Assembly: GCF_002198735.1 (NCBI RefSeq)
Contig: NZ_MWLO01000075.1
Span: 1 to 36,784, forward strand
From: Ideonella sp. A 288
GTDB lineage: Bacteria; Pseudomonadota; Gammaproteobacteria; Burkholderiales; Burkholderiaceae_C
DNA: 36,784 nt
Reading direction: 5' to 3'
The position numbers were made by a program, and so were the translations under genes. The notes under the pieces were generated by a model. That model ran no database searches and was not told the origin of the DNA. It saw only the letters and a list, made by a program, of their open reading frames with translations. Below are positions 409 through 8,574 of this stretch, in pieces (within the stretch, counting starts at the first letter, position 1; each line of letters opens with the position of its first letter).

Positions 409-426
409 GCGTCACGCCTGCGTCAC
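409..426 (+). promoter_or_regulatory. Predicted PHO box upstream of the PlcP-like gene
   Basis: Two perfect copies of GCGTCAC (409-415 and 420-426) stand 11 bp apart, the period of PhoB half-sites (E. coli consensus CTGTCAT-N4-CTGTCAT). The pstS promoter carries the same arrangement (GCGTCAC-N4-CTGTCAC). A weak -10-like hexamer CACGAT lies at 437-442, 10 nt after the box, the same distance as in the pstS promoter. The start codon at 451 follows only 8 nt later. Binding by PhoB is inferred from this symmetry and context. Confidence 0.6.
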
Positions 427-450
427 ACCGACCGATCACGATCACGGGCC

Positions 451-1434
451 ATGCGGCATGACCCACCTGCCCCCGACGACGACGCTCCGGCCTCCAAGGC
501 CAGGCTGAGCGTGCGCACGGCCTGGATCTCCGACCTGCACCTGGGCACGCCCGGCTGCCAGGCCGTGGCGCTGCTGGAGTTCCTGCGCGAGCTGGAGTGC
601 GAGACGCTGTACCTGGTCGGCGACATCATCGACGGCTGGCAGTTGCGCCGCAGCTGGTACTGGCCGCAGGCCCACAACGACGTGGTGCAGAAGGTGCTGC
701 GCAAGGCGCGCAAGGGCACGCGGGTGGTGTTCGTGCCGGGCAACCACGACGAGTTCCTGCGCCGCTACGTGGCCCACAACTTCGGCGGCGTCGACGTGGT
801 CGACGAGGCCGAGCACACGCTGGTCGATGGACGCCGCCTGTGGGTGACCCACGGCGACCTGTTCGACGGCGTGATCCAGTGCGCCCCGTGGCTGGCCCAC
901 GTGGGCGACCTGGCCTACGAGTTCACGCTCAAGGTCAACCGCTGGCTGAACGGCGCGCGCGCCCGGCTGGGGCTGCCGTACTGGAGCCTGTCGCGCTATC
1001 TGAAGGGCCGTGTCAAGCGGGCGGTGAGCTACATCGGCGACTTCGAGGCGGCCGTGGCCCGGGAGGCCCAGCGGCGCGGCCTGCAGGGCGTCGTGTGCGG
1101 GCACATCCACCACGCCGAGATCCGCAGCATCGACGGCATCCTGTACTGCAACGACGGCGACTGGGTCGAGAGCCTGACGGCGCTGGTGGAACACCACGAT
1201 GGCCGCCTCGAGATCATCGACCGTGCCAGCACCGCGCGCCTGCCGCACCGGGCTGTGGTGCCCGCGGCCCATCCGGTCGACGTGGCGCTGCCGGGGCTGG
1301 ACCTGCCCGTGGCCGCGTCGCTCGACGTGTCGGTGGCCGCGCATGCGGCGGGTGGCGACGCGGGCACGGTCCCGGGCGCCGTCCGGGCCGACGCGACCGC
1401 CCCACGCCGTGTGATCGATGTGACGGTGATGTGA
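451..1434 (+). CDS. Calcineurin-like phosphoesterase, PlcP-type phospholipase C candidate (LpxH superfamily)
   Basis: This 327-residue protein belongs to the UDP-2,3-diacylglucosamine pyrophosphatase-like metallophosphoesterases. The metal-site motifs are all visible: SDLH (D28, H30), GD (D58), GNHD (98-100), the THGD histidine H134, and GHIHH (H218, H220). True LpxH, as I recall it, carries GNRDF; this protein has GNHDE. It also has the [11 protein letters not shown] and CGHIHHAEI stretches that I associate with Sinorhizobium PlcP, the phosphate-regulated phospholipase C that degrades membrane phospholipids. An Ala/Val-rich tail of about 70 residues after residue 255 is not part of the fold. 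I chose ATG 451 because conserved sequence begins soon after it and the frame upstream looks non-coding. The gene sits directly before pstS with its own PHO box. Automatic annotation would probably say LpxH. The catalytic fold is certain; the substrate is inferred. Confidence 0.75.
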
Positions 1435-1550: not shown

Positions 1551-1584
1551 GCGTCACGCGCCTGTCACATGCGCTCCCTAGAGT
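1551..1584 (+). promoter_or_regulatory. pstS promoter with PHO box
   Basis: GCGTCAC (1551-1557) and CTGTCAC (1562-1568) form a direct repeat of period 11 and take the place of a -35 element. Ten bases later TAGAGT (1579-1584) is a good -10, as in PhoB-activated promoters. The expected transcription start near 1591 leaves a leader of about 43 nt. That leader includes a GAAAGG Shine-Dalgarno 6-7 nt before the pstS ATG. The site should drive pstS and probably the whole pst-pho cluster. Confidence 0.75.
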
Positions 1585-2671: not shown

Positions 2672-2716
2672 CGCGAAGGGCGGGCGAGCATGCCCTTGCG
2701 CGAGTCGGCCCCGACT
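2672..2716 (+). other. Two consecutive stem-loops in the pstS-pstC gap
   Basis: The first hairpin pairs CGCG-AAGGGC (2672-2681) with GCCCTT-g-CGCG (2692-2702) around a 10-nt loop. The second pairs AGTCG (2703-2707) with CGACT (2712-2716) around GCCC. They begin four nt after the pstS stop and there is no T-run, so they are not a standard intrinsic terminator. A role in stabilising the pstS message or in partial termination before pstC is inferred from position. Confidence 0.5.
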
Positions 2717-2758
2717 TCGGCCTTACCAGCGAGGGGTGCCTTGGCAGCCACGTTCCCC

Positions 2759-3760
2759 ATGAACCCCAACGACCAGGACGAGCGAGTGAAGCCAATGCAG
2801 CACCAGCAGCCGCCCGAGCGCCGCAGGGTGGCGCCGTGGGCCGACAAGGTGTTCTCGCTGCTGGCACACGGGGCGGCGTGGTTCACGCTGGCGCTGCTGG
2901 TGGGGATCATCATCTCGCTGATCGTGGGTGCGGCGCCGGCGATCCGGCACTTCGGGCTGGGGTTCCTGTGGTCGACCGACTGGGACCCGGTGCAGGAGAA
3001 GTTCGGCGGGCTGGTGATGATCTACGGCACGGTGGTGACCTCGGTCATCGCGCTGCTGATCGCCGTGCCGGTGAGCTTCGGCATCGCGCTGTTCCTCACC
3101 GAGATGTCGCCGGGCTGGCTCAAGCGGCCGCTGGGCATCGCGGTGGAGTTGCTCGCGGCCGTGCCCTCCATCGTCTACGGCATGTGGGGGCTGCTGGTGT
3201 TCAGCCCCATCCTGTCCACCTGGATCCAGCAGCCGCTGCAGTCGGTGTTCAAGGGCGTGCCCGTGCTGGGCGCGCTGGTGTCGGGCCCGCCGGTGGGCAT
3301 CGGGCTGCTGTCGGCCGGCATCATCCTGGCCATCATGGTCATCCCGTTCATCGCTGCGGTCATGCGCGACGTCTTCGAGGTGACCCCGCCGATGCTCAAG
3401 GAGTCGGCCTACGGGCTGGGGGCCACCACCTGGGAGGTCGTCTCGCGCGTGGTGCTGCCGTACACCAAGACCGGGGTGGTGGGCGGCATCATGCTCGGGC
3501 TGGGGCGGGCGCTGGGCGAGACCATGGCCGTGACCTTCGTGATCGGCAACTTCAACCAGCTCGACTCGCTGTCGCTGTTCGAGGCCGCCAACAGCATCAC
3601 CTCGGCGCTGGCCAACGAATTTGCCGAAGCCGGCGAAGGGCTGCACCAGGCCTCGCTGATCTACCTCGGGCTGGTGCTGTTCTTCATCACCTTCGTGGTG
3701 CTGGCGCTGTCCAAGCTGCTGCTGTCGCAACTGCGCAAGGGTGAGGGGTCGCGCACATGA
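2759..3760 (+). CDS. pstC: Phosphate ABC transporter permease PstC
   Basis: PstC is one of the two inner-membrane permease subunits of the high-affinity phosphate importer. The 333-residue chain has a polar N-terminus, a first membrane helix near residues 33-55 and a large loop reading [17 protein letters not shown], as in PstC/PstA proteins. Further helices follow, with a binding-protein-dependent permease core containing the EAA-type loop [20 protein letters not shown]. The C-terminal helix ends in a short basic tail. The start is uncertain. ATG 2759 is used here, ATG 2795 is possible, and ATG 2690 would add residues that overlap the intergenic hairpins and do not look like PstC. The stop overlaps the pstA start by four bases (ATGA), so PstC and PstA are probably made together. 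Confidence 0.93.
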
Positions 3761-4659
3761 GTACCCTGTCGAACGAGACCTCGTCCTCCGGGGCCTTCAC
3801 GGCCACGCAGCAGGCCGGCCGGCTGGCCATGCACCGAAGCCGCAAGCGGCGCAACGTGGTGGCGCTGACGCTGTCCCTGGGGGCCATGGCCTTCGGGCTG
3901 TTCTGGCTGGTGTGGATCCTGTTCGAGACCGTGCGGCTGGGCGTGGGCGGGCTGAACCTGGCGGTGTTCACCGAGATGACCCCGCCGCCGCAGGCCGAGA
4001 CCGGGGGGCTGGCCAACGCCATCTTCGGCTCGCTGACCATGGTCGGGCTGGCCACGCTGATCGGCACGCCCATCGGCGTGATGGCCGGCATCTACCTGGC
4101 CGAGTACGGGCAGAAGACCTGGCTGGGCAGCGCCACGCGGTTCATCAACGACATCCTGCTGTCGGCGCCGTCGATCGTGATCGGGCTGTTCATCTACGCG
4201 GCGGTGGTGGCGCAGGTGAAGAGCTTCTCCGGTTTTGCCGGGGTGCTGGCGCTGGCGCTGATCGTCATCCCGGTGGTGATCCGGCAGACCGAGAACATGC
4301 TCAGCCTGATCCCGAACGCGCTGCGCGAGGCGGCGTACGCGCTGGGCACGCCGAAGTGGAAGGTCATCTCGGCCATCACGCTGAAGGCGGCGCGGGCGGG
4401 GGTGGTCACGGGGGTGCTGCTGGCCATTGCGCGCATTGCCGGGGAGACCGCGCCGCTGCTGTTCACGGCGCTGTCCAACCAGTTCTGGACCAGCGACCTG
4501 CGCGAGCCGATGGCCAGCCTGCCGGTGACGATCTTCAAGTTCGCGATGAGCCCGTACGAGAACTGGCAGAAGCTGGCCTGGGCGGGGGTGTTCATCATCA
4601 CGCTGGGCGTGCTGGCGCTGAACATCGCCGCGCGGGTGTTCCTGCGCAACAAGCACTGA
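3757..4659 (+). CDS. pstA: Phosphate ABC transporter permease PstA
   Basis: PstA is the partner permease of PstC. The 300-residue chain has a cytoplasmic Ser/Thr-rich and then basic N-terminus (HRSRKRRN), a first helix around residues 30-55 and a periplasmic loop containing [21 protein letters not shown]. Five further helices follow. The permease EAA loop is visible as [20 protein letters not shown] near residue 195, the site expected to dock on PstB. The chain ends ARVFLRNKH. The gene starts within the pstC stop codon (ATGA overlap), which decides the start. A 51-nt gap then leads to pstB. Confidence 0.95.
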
Positions 4660-4710: not shown

Positions 4711-5496
4711 ATGGACACCCGAGTCGACCACGCCATCACCGAGCGAGCCAAGATCTCGGTGCGGGACCTGAACTTCTACTACGGCGGCTTTCACGCGCTG
4801 AAGAACATCAACCTGGACCTGCCGGAGAACAAGGTCACGGCCTTCATCGGGCCGTCGGGGTGCGGCAAGAGCACGCTGCTGCGGATCTTCAACCGCATGT
4901 TCGAGCTCTACCCGGAGCAGCGCGCCGAGGGGCAGATCCTGCTGGACGGGGCGAACCTGCTGGACCGCAGGATCGACGTGAGCCTGATCCGCGCGAAGGT
5001 CGGCATGGTGTTCCAGAAGCCCACGCCGTTCCCGATGTCGATCTACGACAACATCGCCTTCGGGGTGAAGCTGTTCGAGTCGCTGCCGCGCGTCGAGATG
5101 GACGAGCGGGTGGAGTGGGCGCTGAGGAAGGCCGCGCTGTGGGGCGAGGTCAAGGACAAGCTCAACCAGAGCGGCTCGGGGCTGTCGGGCGGGCAGCAGC
5201 AGCGGCTGTGCATCGCGCGGGGCATCGCCATCAAGCCCGAGGTGATGCTGCTGGACGAGCCGTGCTCGGCGCTGGACCCGATCTCCACGGGCAAGATCGA
5301 GGAGCTGATCACCGAGCTGAAGTCGGACTACACGGTGGTGATCGTCACGCACAACATGCAGCAGGCCGCGCGCTGCTCGGACTACACCGCGTACATGTAC
5401 CTGGGCGACCTGATCGAGTTCGGCCCGACGGCCGACATCTTCATGAAGCCCAAGCGCAAGGACACCGAGGACTACATCACCGGCCGTTTCGGGTAG
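4711..5496 (+). CDS. pstB: Phosphate ABC transporter ATP-binding protein PstB
   Basis: PstB is the cytoplasmic ATPase that powers phosphate uptake through PstCA. The 261-residue protein has Walker A GPSGCGKS (47-54), then the PstB-typical FNRMFELYP with its variable insert. It also has the Q-loop [21 protein letters not shown] signature LSGGQQQRL, Walker B VMLLDEP, D-loop SALDP and the H-loop histidine in [10 protein letters not shown]. An AGAGGA ribosome site lies 10-15 nt before ATG 4711. The stop codon TAG ends at 5496, and the large inverted-repeat element begins at the next base. Length and motifs match the family closely. Confidence 0.97.
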
Positions 5497-5768
5497 AGAG
5501 GGTGTTGACGTGATGAATGGCACCCGCGTGAGGCCCCAGAGTGGGCCCAATCTAGGCGCAAAGCGCAGCCATAGCCCGGCCTATGGCGAGCATTTGCAAC
5601 GACGAGTGGGCCCACTCTGGGGCCTCACCCTTCGGGCCGGGGTACCCAAGGGTGCTGGCGGGCGTTGCACGGCTTGCCCAGGCTGCCAAGCATGCGCTGC
5701 GCCGTGCGCCTACTCCAGCGCCCTTGGCCACCCCGGCGCGGGTGCCATTCATCACGTCAACACCCTCT
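5497..5768. repeat. 272-bp nested inverted-repeat element between pstB and phoU
   Basis: The ends (5497-5528 and 5737-5768) are perfect inverted repeats of 32 bp. Inside are two hairpin arms. Arm 1 has a perfect 22-bp stem (5528-5549 with 5607-5628). Within it an inner stem joins GCAAA (5558-5562) to TTTGC (5593-5597) and GCCATAG (5568-5574) to CTATGGC (5581-5587), with CCCGGC as loop. Arm 2 has a 22-bp stem with three mismatches (5637-5658 with 5715-5736) and an inner GCACGGC/GCCGTGC stem. The whole folds as a three-way junction on either strand. It starts directly after the pstB stop and ends 9 nt before the phoU ATG. No target-site duplication is clear. It may be a MITE- or REP-like mobile repeat, or a structured operon element. 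Confidence 0.85.
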
Positions 5769-5777
5769 GAGGGCACC

Positions 5778-6485
5778 ATGACCGACAAGCACCTCTCCAC
5801 CCAGTTCGACGCCGAACTCAGTGCCATCTCCACCCGCGTGCTCGAGATGGGCGGGCTCGTCGAGTCGCAGGTCATCAATGCGGTTCATGCACTCGCCAAC
5901 TTCGACGGCGACGCCGCAGCGCTGGTGCTCAGGCAGGAGATGCAGGTGAACACGATGGAGGTGGCGATCGATCGCGACCTGTCGTCGATCATCGCCCGGC
6001 GCCAGCCCACCGCACGGGATCTGCGCCTGCTCATCGCCGTCTCGAAGATCATCGCCAACCTCGAGCGCATCGGCGACGAGGCTGCCAAGATCGCCCGCAC
6101 GGTGCAACGTTTGCTGAACGCCGGCAGTTCCAGCCGCATGCGCCTGCCGGTGGCCGACCTGTCGTTCGAGTGCGAACTGGCCACGCGGCAATTGCGCAAG
6201 GTGCTCGATGCGTTCGCACGGCTCGACACTGTGGCCGCGGTGGAAGTGCTCAAGCACGACGACCAGATCGACCAGGAGTTCGAAGGCCTGATGCGCAAGC
6301 TCATCACCTACATGATGGAAGACCCGCGCACCATCTCTGCCGCCATCGACCTGGTGTTCGTGGCCAAGGCCATCGAGCGCGTGGGCGACCACGCCAAGAA
6401 CCTGGCCGAGGTCATCATCTACATCGTCAAGGGCACCGACGTGCGGCACAACCCGTTCGAGACCATCGAGTCGCTGGCCCGCTAG
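5778..6485 (+). CDS. phoU: Phosphate signalling regulator PhoU
   Basis: PhoU links the Pst transporter to the PhoR kinase and keeps the Pho regulon off when phosphate is plentiful. The 235-residue all-helical protein shows two PhoU repeats. The first contains the metal-binding type motif near ERIGDEAAKIAR (about residues 95-106) and the second contains ERVGDHAKNLAE (about 197-208), both hallmarks of the family. ATG 5778 is preceded by GAGGG nine nt upstream. The frame is open further upstream to 5583 through the repeat element, but those residues do not resemble PhoU and are rejected as a start. phoB follows 21 nt downstream, so phoU-phoB-phoR form one transcription unit, possibly with read-through from pstB across the repeat. 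Confidence 0.96.
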   Translation: MTDKHLSTQFDAELSAISTRVLEMGGLVESQVINAVHALANFDGDAAALVLRQEMQVNTMEVAIDRDLSSIIARRQPTARDLRLLIAVSKIIANLERIGDEAAKIARTVQRLLNAGSSSRMRLPVADLSFECELATRQLRKVLDAFARLDTVAAVEVLKHDDQIDQEFEGLMRKLITYMMEDPRTISAAIDLVFVAKAIERVGDHAKNLAEVIIYIVKGTDVRHNPFETIESLAR

Positions 6486-6506: not shown

Positions 6507-7208
6507 ATGACCCGAATCGTGGTGGTCGAAGACGAAGCTGCCATCGCGGAGCTCATCGCCATCAACCTGCGGCATGCGGGCCACGAGGTGATCGTGGCGC
6601 CCAGTGCCGAGGACGCGCGCAGCGAAGTCGACGCCGAACTGCCGGATGTGGTGCTGCTCGACTGGATGCTGCCGGGCCAATCCGGTTTGTCCCTGGCGCG
6701 GCAGTGGCGCGCGGCCGAACGCACGCGCGACCTGCCCATCATCATGCTCACCGCGCGCAGCGAGGAGGGCGACAAGATCGCCGGGCTCGACGCCGGTGCC
6801 GATGACTACCTGACCAAGCCTTTCTCGACCAACGAGTTGATGGCCCGCATCCGCGCCGTGCTGCGCCGCAAGGCGCCGCAATCGATCGACGACGCGGTGG
6901 AAGTGGCGGGGCTGCGGCTCGACCCGGCCACGCACCGGGTCGACCACGCCGGGCGCGACGTCAAGCTCGGGCCCACGGAGTTCCGGCTCCTGCACTTCTT
7001 GATGACCCATCCCGAGCGCGTCCACAGCAGGACCCAGTTGCTGGACCGTGTGTGGGGCGATCACGTGTTCATCGAGGAGCGCACGGTCGATGTCCACATC
7101 AAGCGCTTGCGCGAAGCGCTCTTGCCGGCGCAGTGCGCGGGCATGATCGAGACCGTGCGCGGTGCTGGGTACCGGCTCACCCGCCAGACTGGCGCCGTCT
7201 CGTCGTGA
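6507..7208 (+). CDS. phoB: Phosphate regulon response regulator PhoB
   Basis: PhoB is the DNA-binding regulator that, once phosphorylated by PhoR, binds PHO boxes and activates phosphate-starvation genes. The 233-residue protein has a receiver domain (about 1-120) with acidic pocket E8-D9, phospho-acceptor D52 in LLDWMLPG, the switch threonine in IIMLTARS and the lysine in YLTKPFS. A C-terminal OmpR/PhoB winged helix (about 135-228) includes GPTEFRLLHFLMTHPERVHSR and RTVDVHIKRLREAL. A GAGG sits directly before the ATG. It lies between phoU and phoR. The two PHO boxes at 409 and 1551 are its expected local targets. Confidence 0.97.
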   Translation: MTRIVVVEDEAAIAELIAINLRHAGHEVIVAPSAEDARSEVDAELPDVVLLDWMLPGQSGLSLARQWRAAERTRDLPIIMLTARSEEGDKIAGLDAGADDYLTKPFSTNELMARIRAVLRRKAPQSIDDAVEVAGLRLDPATHRVDHAGRDVKLGPTEFRLLHFLMTHPERVHSRTQLLDRVWGDHVFIEERTVDVHIKRLREALLPAQCAGMIETVRGAGYRLTRQTGAVSS

Positions 7209-7221
7209 GTTCGTTTCGCCG

Positions 7222-8574
7222 ATGAGTTCGCTGCTGCAACGCCTGCCGATGGCATTGGCCTCGCTGGCCGTCGGCGGGGTGCTCGGCCGCGTGTTGGGCG
7301 AGGCGGTCGGTTCGCCCTTGTGGGGCCTGACGCTGGGTGGTGTCGTCGGCTCGGCGGCCTGGGTGTTGCTGGATGACCTGCGTGCCTCGCGATTGGTGCG
7401 GTGGCTGTCCATGGCGACGGATCGAGAGGCCCCGCATGGCGCTGGCCTGTGGGGTGAGATGGGCTATCTCGTCGAGCGCGCGCTGCGCCAGCGAGACCAG
7501 GCGTTGGCACGCGAACGTGACCGGCTGACCCAGTTCCTGTCGGCCATCGAAGCTTCGCCGAACGGGGTGTTGTTGCTCGATCCGCTCGACCACATCGACT
7601 GGTGCAGCCTGGTGGCGGCCGATCACCTGGGACTCGACGCCCGTCGCGACCTGCGCCAGCCCATCACCAACCTGGTTCGTTCGCCGGAATTCGTGTCCTA
7701 CCTCAAGGCCGGCGACTGGGACGAGCCGGTGACCTTCGCGCTGCCTGGCGGTGGTTGCACGTTGACGGTGCTGGTCAGGGGCTATGGCGATGGCCAGAAG
7801 CTGGTGCTGTCGCAGGACGTCACCGAACGCCTGCGCGCCGACACCATGCGCCGAGACTTCGTGGCCAACGTGTCGCACGAGATCCGCACGCCCTTGACGG
7901 TGCTGGCCGGCTTCCTGGAAACCATGGAGAGCCTGCCATTGAGCGAGACGGAGCGGGCTCGAATGCAGGCACTGATGCGACAGCAGACCGATCGGATGCA
8001 GGTGCTGGTGGCCGACCTGTTGACGCTCGCGCAGTTGGAAGGCAGCCCGCGCCCACCGGCCGACCGGTGGGTGTCCGTGGACGTCCTCGTGCAGCGGGTG
8101 CTGCAGGACGGGGAGGGGCTGTCGAAGGGGCGGCACCCGATCACCGCCGTGGGCCTCGACGGCGCCGCGATTGCCGGCATTGAATCCGAACTGCAGAGTG
8201 CCCTGAGCAACCTGCTCTCCAACGCCGTGCGCTACACGCCAGCCGGCGGACAGATCGAGGTGACCTGGCTGCTGCGGGCCGATGGCAGTGGCGAGTTGGG
8301 CGTCACCGACAGCGGCATGGGCATCGCAAGGGAGCACCTGTCCCGCTTGACCGAGCGCTTCTACCGGGTCGATGGCAGTCGCTCGCGCGAGACCGGTGGC
8401 ACAGGCCTGGGGCTGTCGATCGTCAAGCACGTGATGCAGCGCCATGGCGGCAACCTCGACATCGAGAGTGAGCCGGGCAAGGGGTCGACCTTCCGGCTGC
8501 AGTTTCCGTCCGGACGGGTGCGACCGGGTCACACCGCGATCAGCGGACCGCGATTCGCCGATACACCAGCGTGA
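7222..8574 (+). CDS. phoR: Phosphate regulon sensor histidine kinase PhoR
   Basis: PhoR is the inner-membrane kinase/phosphatase that controls PhoB according to Pst activity. The 450-residue chain begins with two short hydrophobic segments (about 8-28 and 33-52) without a real periplasmic domain, as usual for PhoR. A linker and PAS domain (about 100-200, FLSAIEASPNGVLLLD) follow. The HisKA domain has H219 in NVSHEIRTPL. The ATPase domain shows the N-box NLLSNAVRYTP, G1 DSGMGIA and G2 GTGLGLSIV. ATG 7222 lies 13 nt after the phoB stop without a clear ribosome site; a GTG at 7162 inside phoB is possible but less likely. Its 3' end overlaps the end of the convergent membrane-protein gene by 35 nt. 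Confidence 0.95.
   Translation: MSSLLQRLPMALASLAVGGVLGRVLGEAVGSPLWGLTLGGVVGSAAWVLLDDLRASRLVRWLSMATDREAPHGAGLWGEMGYLVERALRQRDQALARERDRLTQFLSAIEASPNGVLLLDPLDHIDWCSLVAADHLGLDARRDLRQPITNLVRSPEFVSYLKAGDWDEPVTFALPGGGCTLTVLVRGYGDGQKLVLSQDVTERLRADTMRRDFVANVSHEIRTPLTVLAGFLETMESLPLSETERARMQALMRQQTDRMQVLVADLLTLAQLEGSPRPPADRWVSVDVLVQRVLQDGEGLSKGRHPITAVGLDGAAIAGIESELQSALSNLLSNAVRYTPAGGQIEVTWLLRADGSGELGVTDSGMGIAREHLSRLTERFYRVDGSRSRETGGTGLGLSIVKHVMQRHGGNLDIESEPGKGSTFRLQFPSGRVRPGHTAISGPRFADTPA

Follow-up and report, generated by a model that had tools for sequence, protein, structure and literature searches.

Replacement of membrane phospholipids by the PlcP-Agt route is established in Phaeobacter (PMC4796936), Pseudomonas aeruginosa (PMC8528852), and Methylosinus (PMC9239053), and the passages of these three papers that describe the route base it on mutants and heterologous expression. 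The same passages place PlcP-driven lipid replacement in Alphaproteobacteria, Pseudomonas, and marine bacteria. A passage of PMC4796936 reports Sinorhizobium meliloti PlcP to be active on PE and PC only, and one of PMC8528852 gives 46% identity between that protein and P. aeruginosa PA3219. For Burkholderia sensu lato, parts of PMC7814305 report Pho boxes predicted upstream of olsB homologues and, as data not shown, the replacement of phospholipids by ornithine lipids under low phosphate. Burkholderia cenocepacia is known to produce leaderless transcripts, according to a passage of PMC4603805, and the terms leaderless and Pho box both occur in the text of a Streptomyces paper (PMC6022917).

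Here, we describe a gene found in a 36,784-nucleotide stretch of Ideonella sp. A 288, order Burkholderiales (the window; assembly GCF_002198735.1, contig NZ_MWLO01000075.1). We consider it very probable, taking the account as a whole, that this gene is a plcP under PhoB control, expressed from a leaderless mRNA, and that its product removes headgroups and so feeds lipid replacement by Agt and OlsB. New here are the promoter layout shared by many plcP, olsB, and agt genes, the limited linkage of plcP to pstS, and a conserved membrane protein with weak Mpo1 likeness whose gene is paired divergently with agt.

RESULTS

The window gene encodes a PlcP-type protein

The best coding reading in the ORF analysis of the window extends from an ATG at position 451 to position 1434 on the plus strand and encodes 327 residues, 451 also being the predicted leaderless start. 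An earlier sequence-only reading had delimited the feature as 409 to 1434; its end is retained, and its start corresponds to the first base of an upstream repeat, with the ATG at 451. The protein contains a calcineurin-like phosphoesterase domain (Pfam Metallophos, above cut-off) and, as that reading had pointed out, carries GNHDE at residues 97 to 101 (codons 739 to 753, plus strand), unlike GNRDF. The DxH, GDxxD, GNHD, HGD, and GHxH motifs of the calcineurin-type metal site are invariant in a 20-row alignment. The window protein is 57% identical to P. aeruginosa PlcP over 242 residues and 55% identical to S. meliloti PlcP over 245 residues, values that reach the level between the two characterized PlcPs themselves (46%), and only 25% identical to Escherichia coli LpxH.

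Both reference records count as the characterized PlcPs through their gene order. The S. meliloti gene, which adjoins an AHL synthase and a LuxR gene, is taken here to be SMc00171 from the order of the locus in the sinR/sinI neighborhood; the P. aeruginosa gene, with a glycosyltransferase directly downstream, is presumably PA3219, again from gene order. No export signal was seen in the window protein, and a PADLOC scan of it returned no match. Its AlphaFold model has low confidence in the C-terminal extension past approximately residue 263. The closest solved structures, by sequence and by fold (Foldseek), are those of LpxH, and no PlcP structure is present among the structure matches listed; the LpxH folds thus show a shared superfamily and nothing more. 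The sequence marks the gene product as a phospholipase C of the bacterial PlcP type, and its assignment to this known family is well supported.

The genome carries a separate lpxH

A maximum-likelihood tree of 107 rows resolved a PlcP side of 75 rows and an LpxH clade of 32 rows, each with 100/100 support, and the query fell on the PlcP side together with both reference PlcPs. The tree tool flagged long branches, the longest (4.07) being that of the genome's own LpxH. A Mitsuaria match took its place among rows from the family of the window, in line with an origin in Burkholderiales. GNHDE is present in 73 of the 75 PlcP-side rows, while GNRDF occurs in 30 of the 32 LpxH rows of the tree alignment. 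When scored with the LpxH models, the window protein reached 42 bits on NF003743 (cut-off, 134) and 37 bits on TIGR01854 (cut-off, 190). Another gene, located at L011:1432-2268 on the minus strand of contig C28 in this genome, passed NF003743 with 205 bits and missed TIGR01854 with 167 bits. An ORF that by eye looks peptidyl-prolyl isomerase-like adjoins this lpxH, the same neighbor as in E. coli. The window gene is therefore not the genome's sole candidate for the lipid A step. The sequence-only reading had held that the gene is not lpxH and had proposed a search for a second, true one; the tree bears out the former, and the search located the latter. An LpxH identity for the window protein was rejected on the separate clade, the NF003743 score, and the presence of the lpxH on C28.

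The same reading had warned that automatic annotation may misname the gene, and public records confirm that the misnaming is common. Among 32 matches in a plasmid collection (11 of them from Roseomonas, and the last nine rows below 45% identity or partial), 24 records, among them those of both reference PlcP loci, call the homologue UDP-2,3-diacylglucosamine diphosphatase, and the remaining 8 list no gene at the match. Across the order, 135 of 250 genomes match the window protein at 1e-5; 125 of these have a strong plcP (3.7e-43 or better), and the other 10 matches are at 7e-11 or weaker. An lpxH above cut-off was found in 238 of the 250 genomes and coexists with plcP in 122 of the 125 strong-plcP genomes, the three exceptions belonging to one family. 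In the genus of the window, plcP is present in 15 of 21 genomes, or in 9 of the 12 of good quality (absent from the other 3).

The family with the exceptions (f16) was sampled with seven genomes (G035, G083, G127, G166, G203, G234, and G264), none of which has an lpxH above cut-off; plcP is found in three of them, G035, G166, and G234. Given the absence of an above-cut-off lpxH in all seven, this family probably relies on a different enzyme for lipid A or has no such enzyme.

Pho-type repeats precede plcP and pstS next to the pst-pho genes

The plcP gene had been described as lying beside pst-pho, and the neighboring genes hold up as such, since PstS, PstC, PstA, PstB, PhoU, PhoB, and PhoR each pass at least one NCBIfam model. 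All are on the plus strand: pstS at 1634 to 2668 (NF008171, 480 bits; cut-off, 339), pstC at 2690 to 3760 (NF008435, 504 bits from residue 48; cut-off, 502; true start probably further in), pstA at 3757 to 4659 (NF008430, 507 bits; cut-off, 439), pstB at 4711 to 5496 (TIGR00972, 394 bits; cut-off, 343), phoU at 5583 to 6485 (TIGR02135, 210 bits from residue 73; cut-off, 130; true start probably further in), phoB at 6507 to 7208 (TIGR02154, 344 bits; cut-off, 296), and phoR at 7162 to 8574 (TIGR02966, 367 bits; cut-off, 334; start uncertain).

Upstream of plcP, positions 409 to 426 (plus strand) form a predicted Pho box, an exact match consisting of two GCGTCAC half-sites (409 to 415 and 420 to 426) separated by GCCT. 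This is the perfect direct repeat of period 11 reported by the sequence-only reading, and it ends 24 nt before the ATG. A -10-like CACGAT, whose role we deduce from its position, follows 10 nt past the box (437 to 442, plus strand). The matching repeat that had been noted in the pstS promoter, GCGTCACGCGCCTGTCAC at 1551 to 1568 (plus strand), is likewise an exact match and a predicted Pho box; a -10-like TAGAGT was read by eye at 1579 to 1584 (plus strand), and 65 nt separate the box from the pstS ATG. The pattern SYGTCAYNNNNSYGTCAY has three matches in the window, against a mean of 0.04 and a largest value of 1 in 100 shuffles.

The third of these, absent from the earlier reading, is a minus-strand site (1420 to 1437) that extends over the stop codon of plcP, approximately 114 nt ahead of the pstS box. 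It may be there by chance or be an extra PhoB site.

In the 6.98-Mb genome, the same pattern has nine matches, compared with two for a backwards control, and six of the nine are on other contigs. Exact repeats precede ppk (C60, L109), whose ATG lies 23 nt from the repeat, similarly to plcP, as well as a 2-aminoethylphosphonate transporter operon (C78, L108) and a GT28-type glycosyltransferase gene (C154, L102; box at 7799 to 7816, minus strand). On C30 (L107), overlapping Pho-type repeats in reverse orientation (5549 to 5577, minus strand) are found just before DUF47-like and Pit-type genes, both names being under their NCBIfam cut-offs. The repeat on C29 precedes a 45-residue ORF followed by a histidine kinase, and the one on C71 falls in the final part of a lytic-transglycosylase-like coding region, where it is probably due to chance.

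Behind the C154 repeat, the GT28-type gene is accompanied by two GT4 glycosyltransferase genes and one heparinase II/III-like gene. These may form a cluster for a polysaccharide or glycolipid under phosphate control.

The repeat is conserved upstream of plcP, olsB, and agt

The upstream regions of homologues were compared at a threshold of 12/14 or better for repeats of period 11. The 70 plcP loci were the best matches of three homologue searches, at most 30 from each; they are partly close relatives and not a random draw, so that counts among them are not independent. The 31 lpxH loci were the genome's own and the 30 best order-wide matches, the 18 olsB loci were all matches of the olsB search, and the 13 agt loci were matches of at least 61% identity, with weaker ones (29 to 38% and the like) left out. 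A period-11 repeat was found upstream of 47 of the 70 plcP loci, compared with 1 to 13 for eight other periods and with a mean of 2.8 (most, 7) in shuffles; the other 23 upstreams are without a repeat at threshold. The corresponding numbers were 16 of 18 for olsB (1 to 6 at eight other periods) and 7 of 13 for agt (0 to 2 at eight other periods), and none of the 31 lpxH upstreams has the repeat. With the pattern used here, the P. aeruginosa plcP locus scores 13/14 and that of S. meliloti 11/14. The claim that the gene is Pho regulated thus gains support from footprinting with controls, and plcP of the window is probably switched on by the phosphate starvation regulator, a prediction made from its upstream sequence.

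A fixed promoter layout predicts leaderless transcripts

The distance between the repeat and the start codon is similar in four genes of this genome, namely, 24 nt for plcP, 23 nt for olsB, 22 nt for agt, and 23 nt for ppk. Among relatives, an in-frame ATG lies 22 to 24 nt past the last repeat in 27 of the 47 repeat-bearing plcP loci (exactly 24 nt in 20 of them), in 10 of 16 olsB loci, and in 4 of 7 agt loci. ATGs 20 to 27 nt past the repeat in the 47 plcP loci were in frame 30 times and off frame 10 times. The motif AnnAT occupies positions 12 to 16 past the repeat in 16 of 47 plcP, 12 of 16 olsB, and 6 of 7 agt upstreams, and was found in none of these upstreams at seven other registers tested. 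The fixed layout, with the repeat, a 10-nt gap, a -10 box, and an ATG at 22 to 24 nt, would place the start of the transcript at or beside the ATG, which predicts leaderless mRNAs.

An SD-like tetramer was detected in 7 of the 27 plcP, 1 of the 10 olsB, and 2 of the 4 agt loci that have this layout, the agt of this genome being one of the latter 2, and 20 of the 47 repeat-bearing plcP loci are without an in-frame ATG at 22 to 24 nt. Leaderless initiation would thus not be universal. Other genes behind a repeat in this genome have room for a leader, with 65 nt for pstS and 76 nt to the likely ATG for the GT28-type gene, and the phosphonate transporter gene has an AAGGAG site ahead of its likely start. 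No such combination of repeat, -10 box, and ATG is described in the titles and abstract beginnings of the open-licence literature matches listed.

Candidate partner genes for lipid replacement

Two candidate genes for the synthesis of lipids without phosphorus are present in the genome, as expected, like the Pho box in the promoter, for a PlcP. One, on C162, encodes an agt-like glycosyltransferase with 41% identity to P. aeruginosa Agt1; its best NCBIfam match reaches 129 bits, under the cut-off of 480, and its upstream repeat scores 12/14. The other, on C101, encodes an olsB-like acyltransferase (PF13444, 103 bits) that scores 137 bits on NF052554 (OlsB), under the cut-off of 350, and is preceded by four tandem Pho-type repeats. 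No olsA was seen beside this olsB when the ORFs were read by eye. A betaine lipid route was rejected, as a search of the genome for the btaA family (PF11899) found nothing.

While plcP, the agt-like gene, and the olsB-like gene are on separate contigs here, relatives often have them as neighbors. Of the 70 best-match plcP loci, 39 have an agt-like gene at most 1.5 kb away on the same strand (36 downstream and 3 upstream) and 9 have olsB, and neither is beside lpxH in any of the 31 loci inspected. In the genus, an agt orthologue and/or olsB is within 10 kb of plcP for 12 of the 15 genes, the exceptions being the genome of the window, G007, and G009. By comparison, pstS is near plcP in 1 of the 70 loci, which is the window itself (1.5-kb flanks, or as much as the contig offered), and was absent from 16 wider plcP regions, where the sole pst-pho matches were distant ones to PstB, PhoB, and PhoR (30 to 35% identity). 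We therefore rejected a plcP-pst linkage as a general rule: linkage to agt and olsB is common among relatives, and linkage to pstS was observed for this genome alone. The link to membrane lipid phosphate salvage that the sequence-only reading had drawn stands mainly on the agt and olsB neighbors of relatives and not on the proximity to pst.

Divergent from agt, a membrane protein of approximately 200 residues is encoded in all 11 cases available (10 of the 16 wider regions plus this genome, where it is found at L104:6437-7036 on the minus strand; the others are L189-L192, L195, L198-L200, L202, and L204). In 7 of the 11, a repeat of 13/14 or better reads toward this gene. The protein scores 18.4 bits on the Pfam Mpo1-like model, under the cut-off of 24; BLASTP against the P. 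aeruginosa Mpo1-like protein gave nothing significant, and there was no fold match of note in the PDB (best E value, 1.5).

DISCUSSION

The sequences compared here show that the gene is orthologous to plcP, that lpxH is a separate gene, that the repeats exist and are conserved, and that partner genes are present. From these we infer that PhoB binds and where the transcript begins, as well as the reaction, its cellular place, and the lipid products. Under phosphate shortage, PhoB, which is encoded approximately 5 kb downstream, would in its phosphorylated form bind the GCGTCAC repeats at 409 to 426, and transcription of plcP would begin with the ATG at 451 or no more than a few bases from it, yielding a leaderless mRNA. 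The two-metal phosphoesterase PlcP would then strip the phospho-headgroup from membrane phospholipids, which would release phosphate for reuse and leave diacylglycerol. The Agt-type enzyme encoded on C162 could glycosylate this diacylglycerol, and the OlsB-type enzyme encoded on C101 could begin the synthesis of phosphorus-free ornithine lipids.

Three other explanations were considered. That the window gene encodes the lipid A enzyme LpxH (UDP-2,3-diacylglucosamine diphosphatase), or a second isozyme of it, would fit the common superfamily, the LpxH structures that are its best matches by sequence and fold, the lipid A name in 24 of the 32 matching public records, and the divergence of the other lpxH, which stays under the TIGR01854 cut-off. 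We nevertheless find it extremely unlikely, as the protein scores far under the NF003743 cut-off, falls outside the LpxH clade, has GNHDE in place of GNRDF, and coexists with a distinct lpxH. It is moreover missing from roughly half of the genomes sampled in the order, which argues against an essential enzyme such as LpxH, and it is preceded by Pho-type repeats of a kind found upstream of none of the 31 lpxH genes.

If the gene is accepted as a member of the PlcP clade, its substrate or its regulation could still differ from what we propose. A Pho-controlled phosphodiesterase whose substrates are not intact membrane phospholipids but, for example, nucleotides or glycerophosphodiesters is conceivable in that the superfamily is broad and a substrate is not readable from sequence; the 57% and 55% identity to PlcPs whose lipid roles were shown with mutants and the agt and olsB genes found near plcP in relatives nonetheless make it improbable. 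A constitutive gene, with a repeat that is no working PhoB site, could be defended by the 23 of 70 best-match homologues without a repeat at threshold and by the PhoB site here being a predicted one, but is very hard to reconcile with the period-specific conservation of the repeat and with the -10 element and the ATG that stand in a fixed register to it in many relatives. We thus retain a PhoB-controlled plcP that acts on membrane phospholipids as the preferred reading.

A broader proposal is offered tentatively, at slightly less than even confidence: that in this branch of the Burkholderiales plcP, olsB, and agt, with ppk in this genome, form a leaderless PhoB regulon translated without an SD sequence, of which the weakly Mpo1-like protein is a further member. 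If true, phosphate starvation would act on lipid replacement through translation in addition to transcription. Strong plcP genes in 125 of 250 Burkholderiales genomes extend the gene beyond the groups treated in the papers cited above, and relabeling the homologues that carry the lipid A name would alter the reading of phosphate starvation and lipid A data.

Comparison with known systems

The olsB genes of Burkholderia sensu lato resemble those found here in having Pho-type repeats upstream, whereas the passages of PMC7814305 that describe them concern neither plcP nor agt and give no constant spacing between box and start codon. LpxH shares the superfamily with the window protein and is its closest solved fold, yet it forms a separate clade, has GNRDF instead of GNHDE, and is encoded by a distinct gene in the same genome. 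S. meliloti PlcP has GNHDE and 55% identity to the window protein, and its locus is beside the AHL synthase and LuxR genes; it is shorter (281 against 327 residues), the window protein having a longer C terminus, and, compared with its gene, plcP of the window is beside pst-pho and closer to the Pho repeat pattern. The PlcP of P. aeruginosa (PA3219), which operates with Agt1 and Agt2, is 57% identical to the window protein; a Pho repeat precedes both genes, and the genome of the window encodes a relative of Agt1. The P. aeruginosa gene differs in the gap from box to start, which is 43 nt there and 24 nt in the window, and in having the glycosyltransferase gene directly downstream, whereas the genome of the window has plcP and agt on different contigs.
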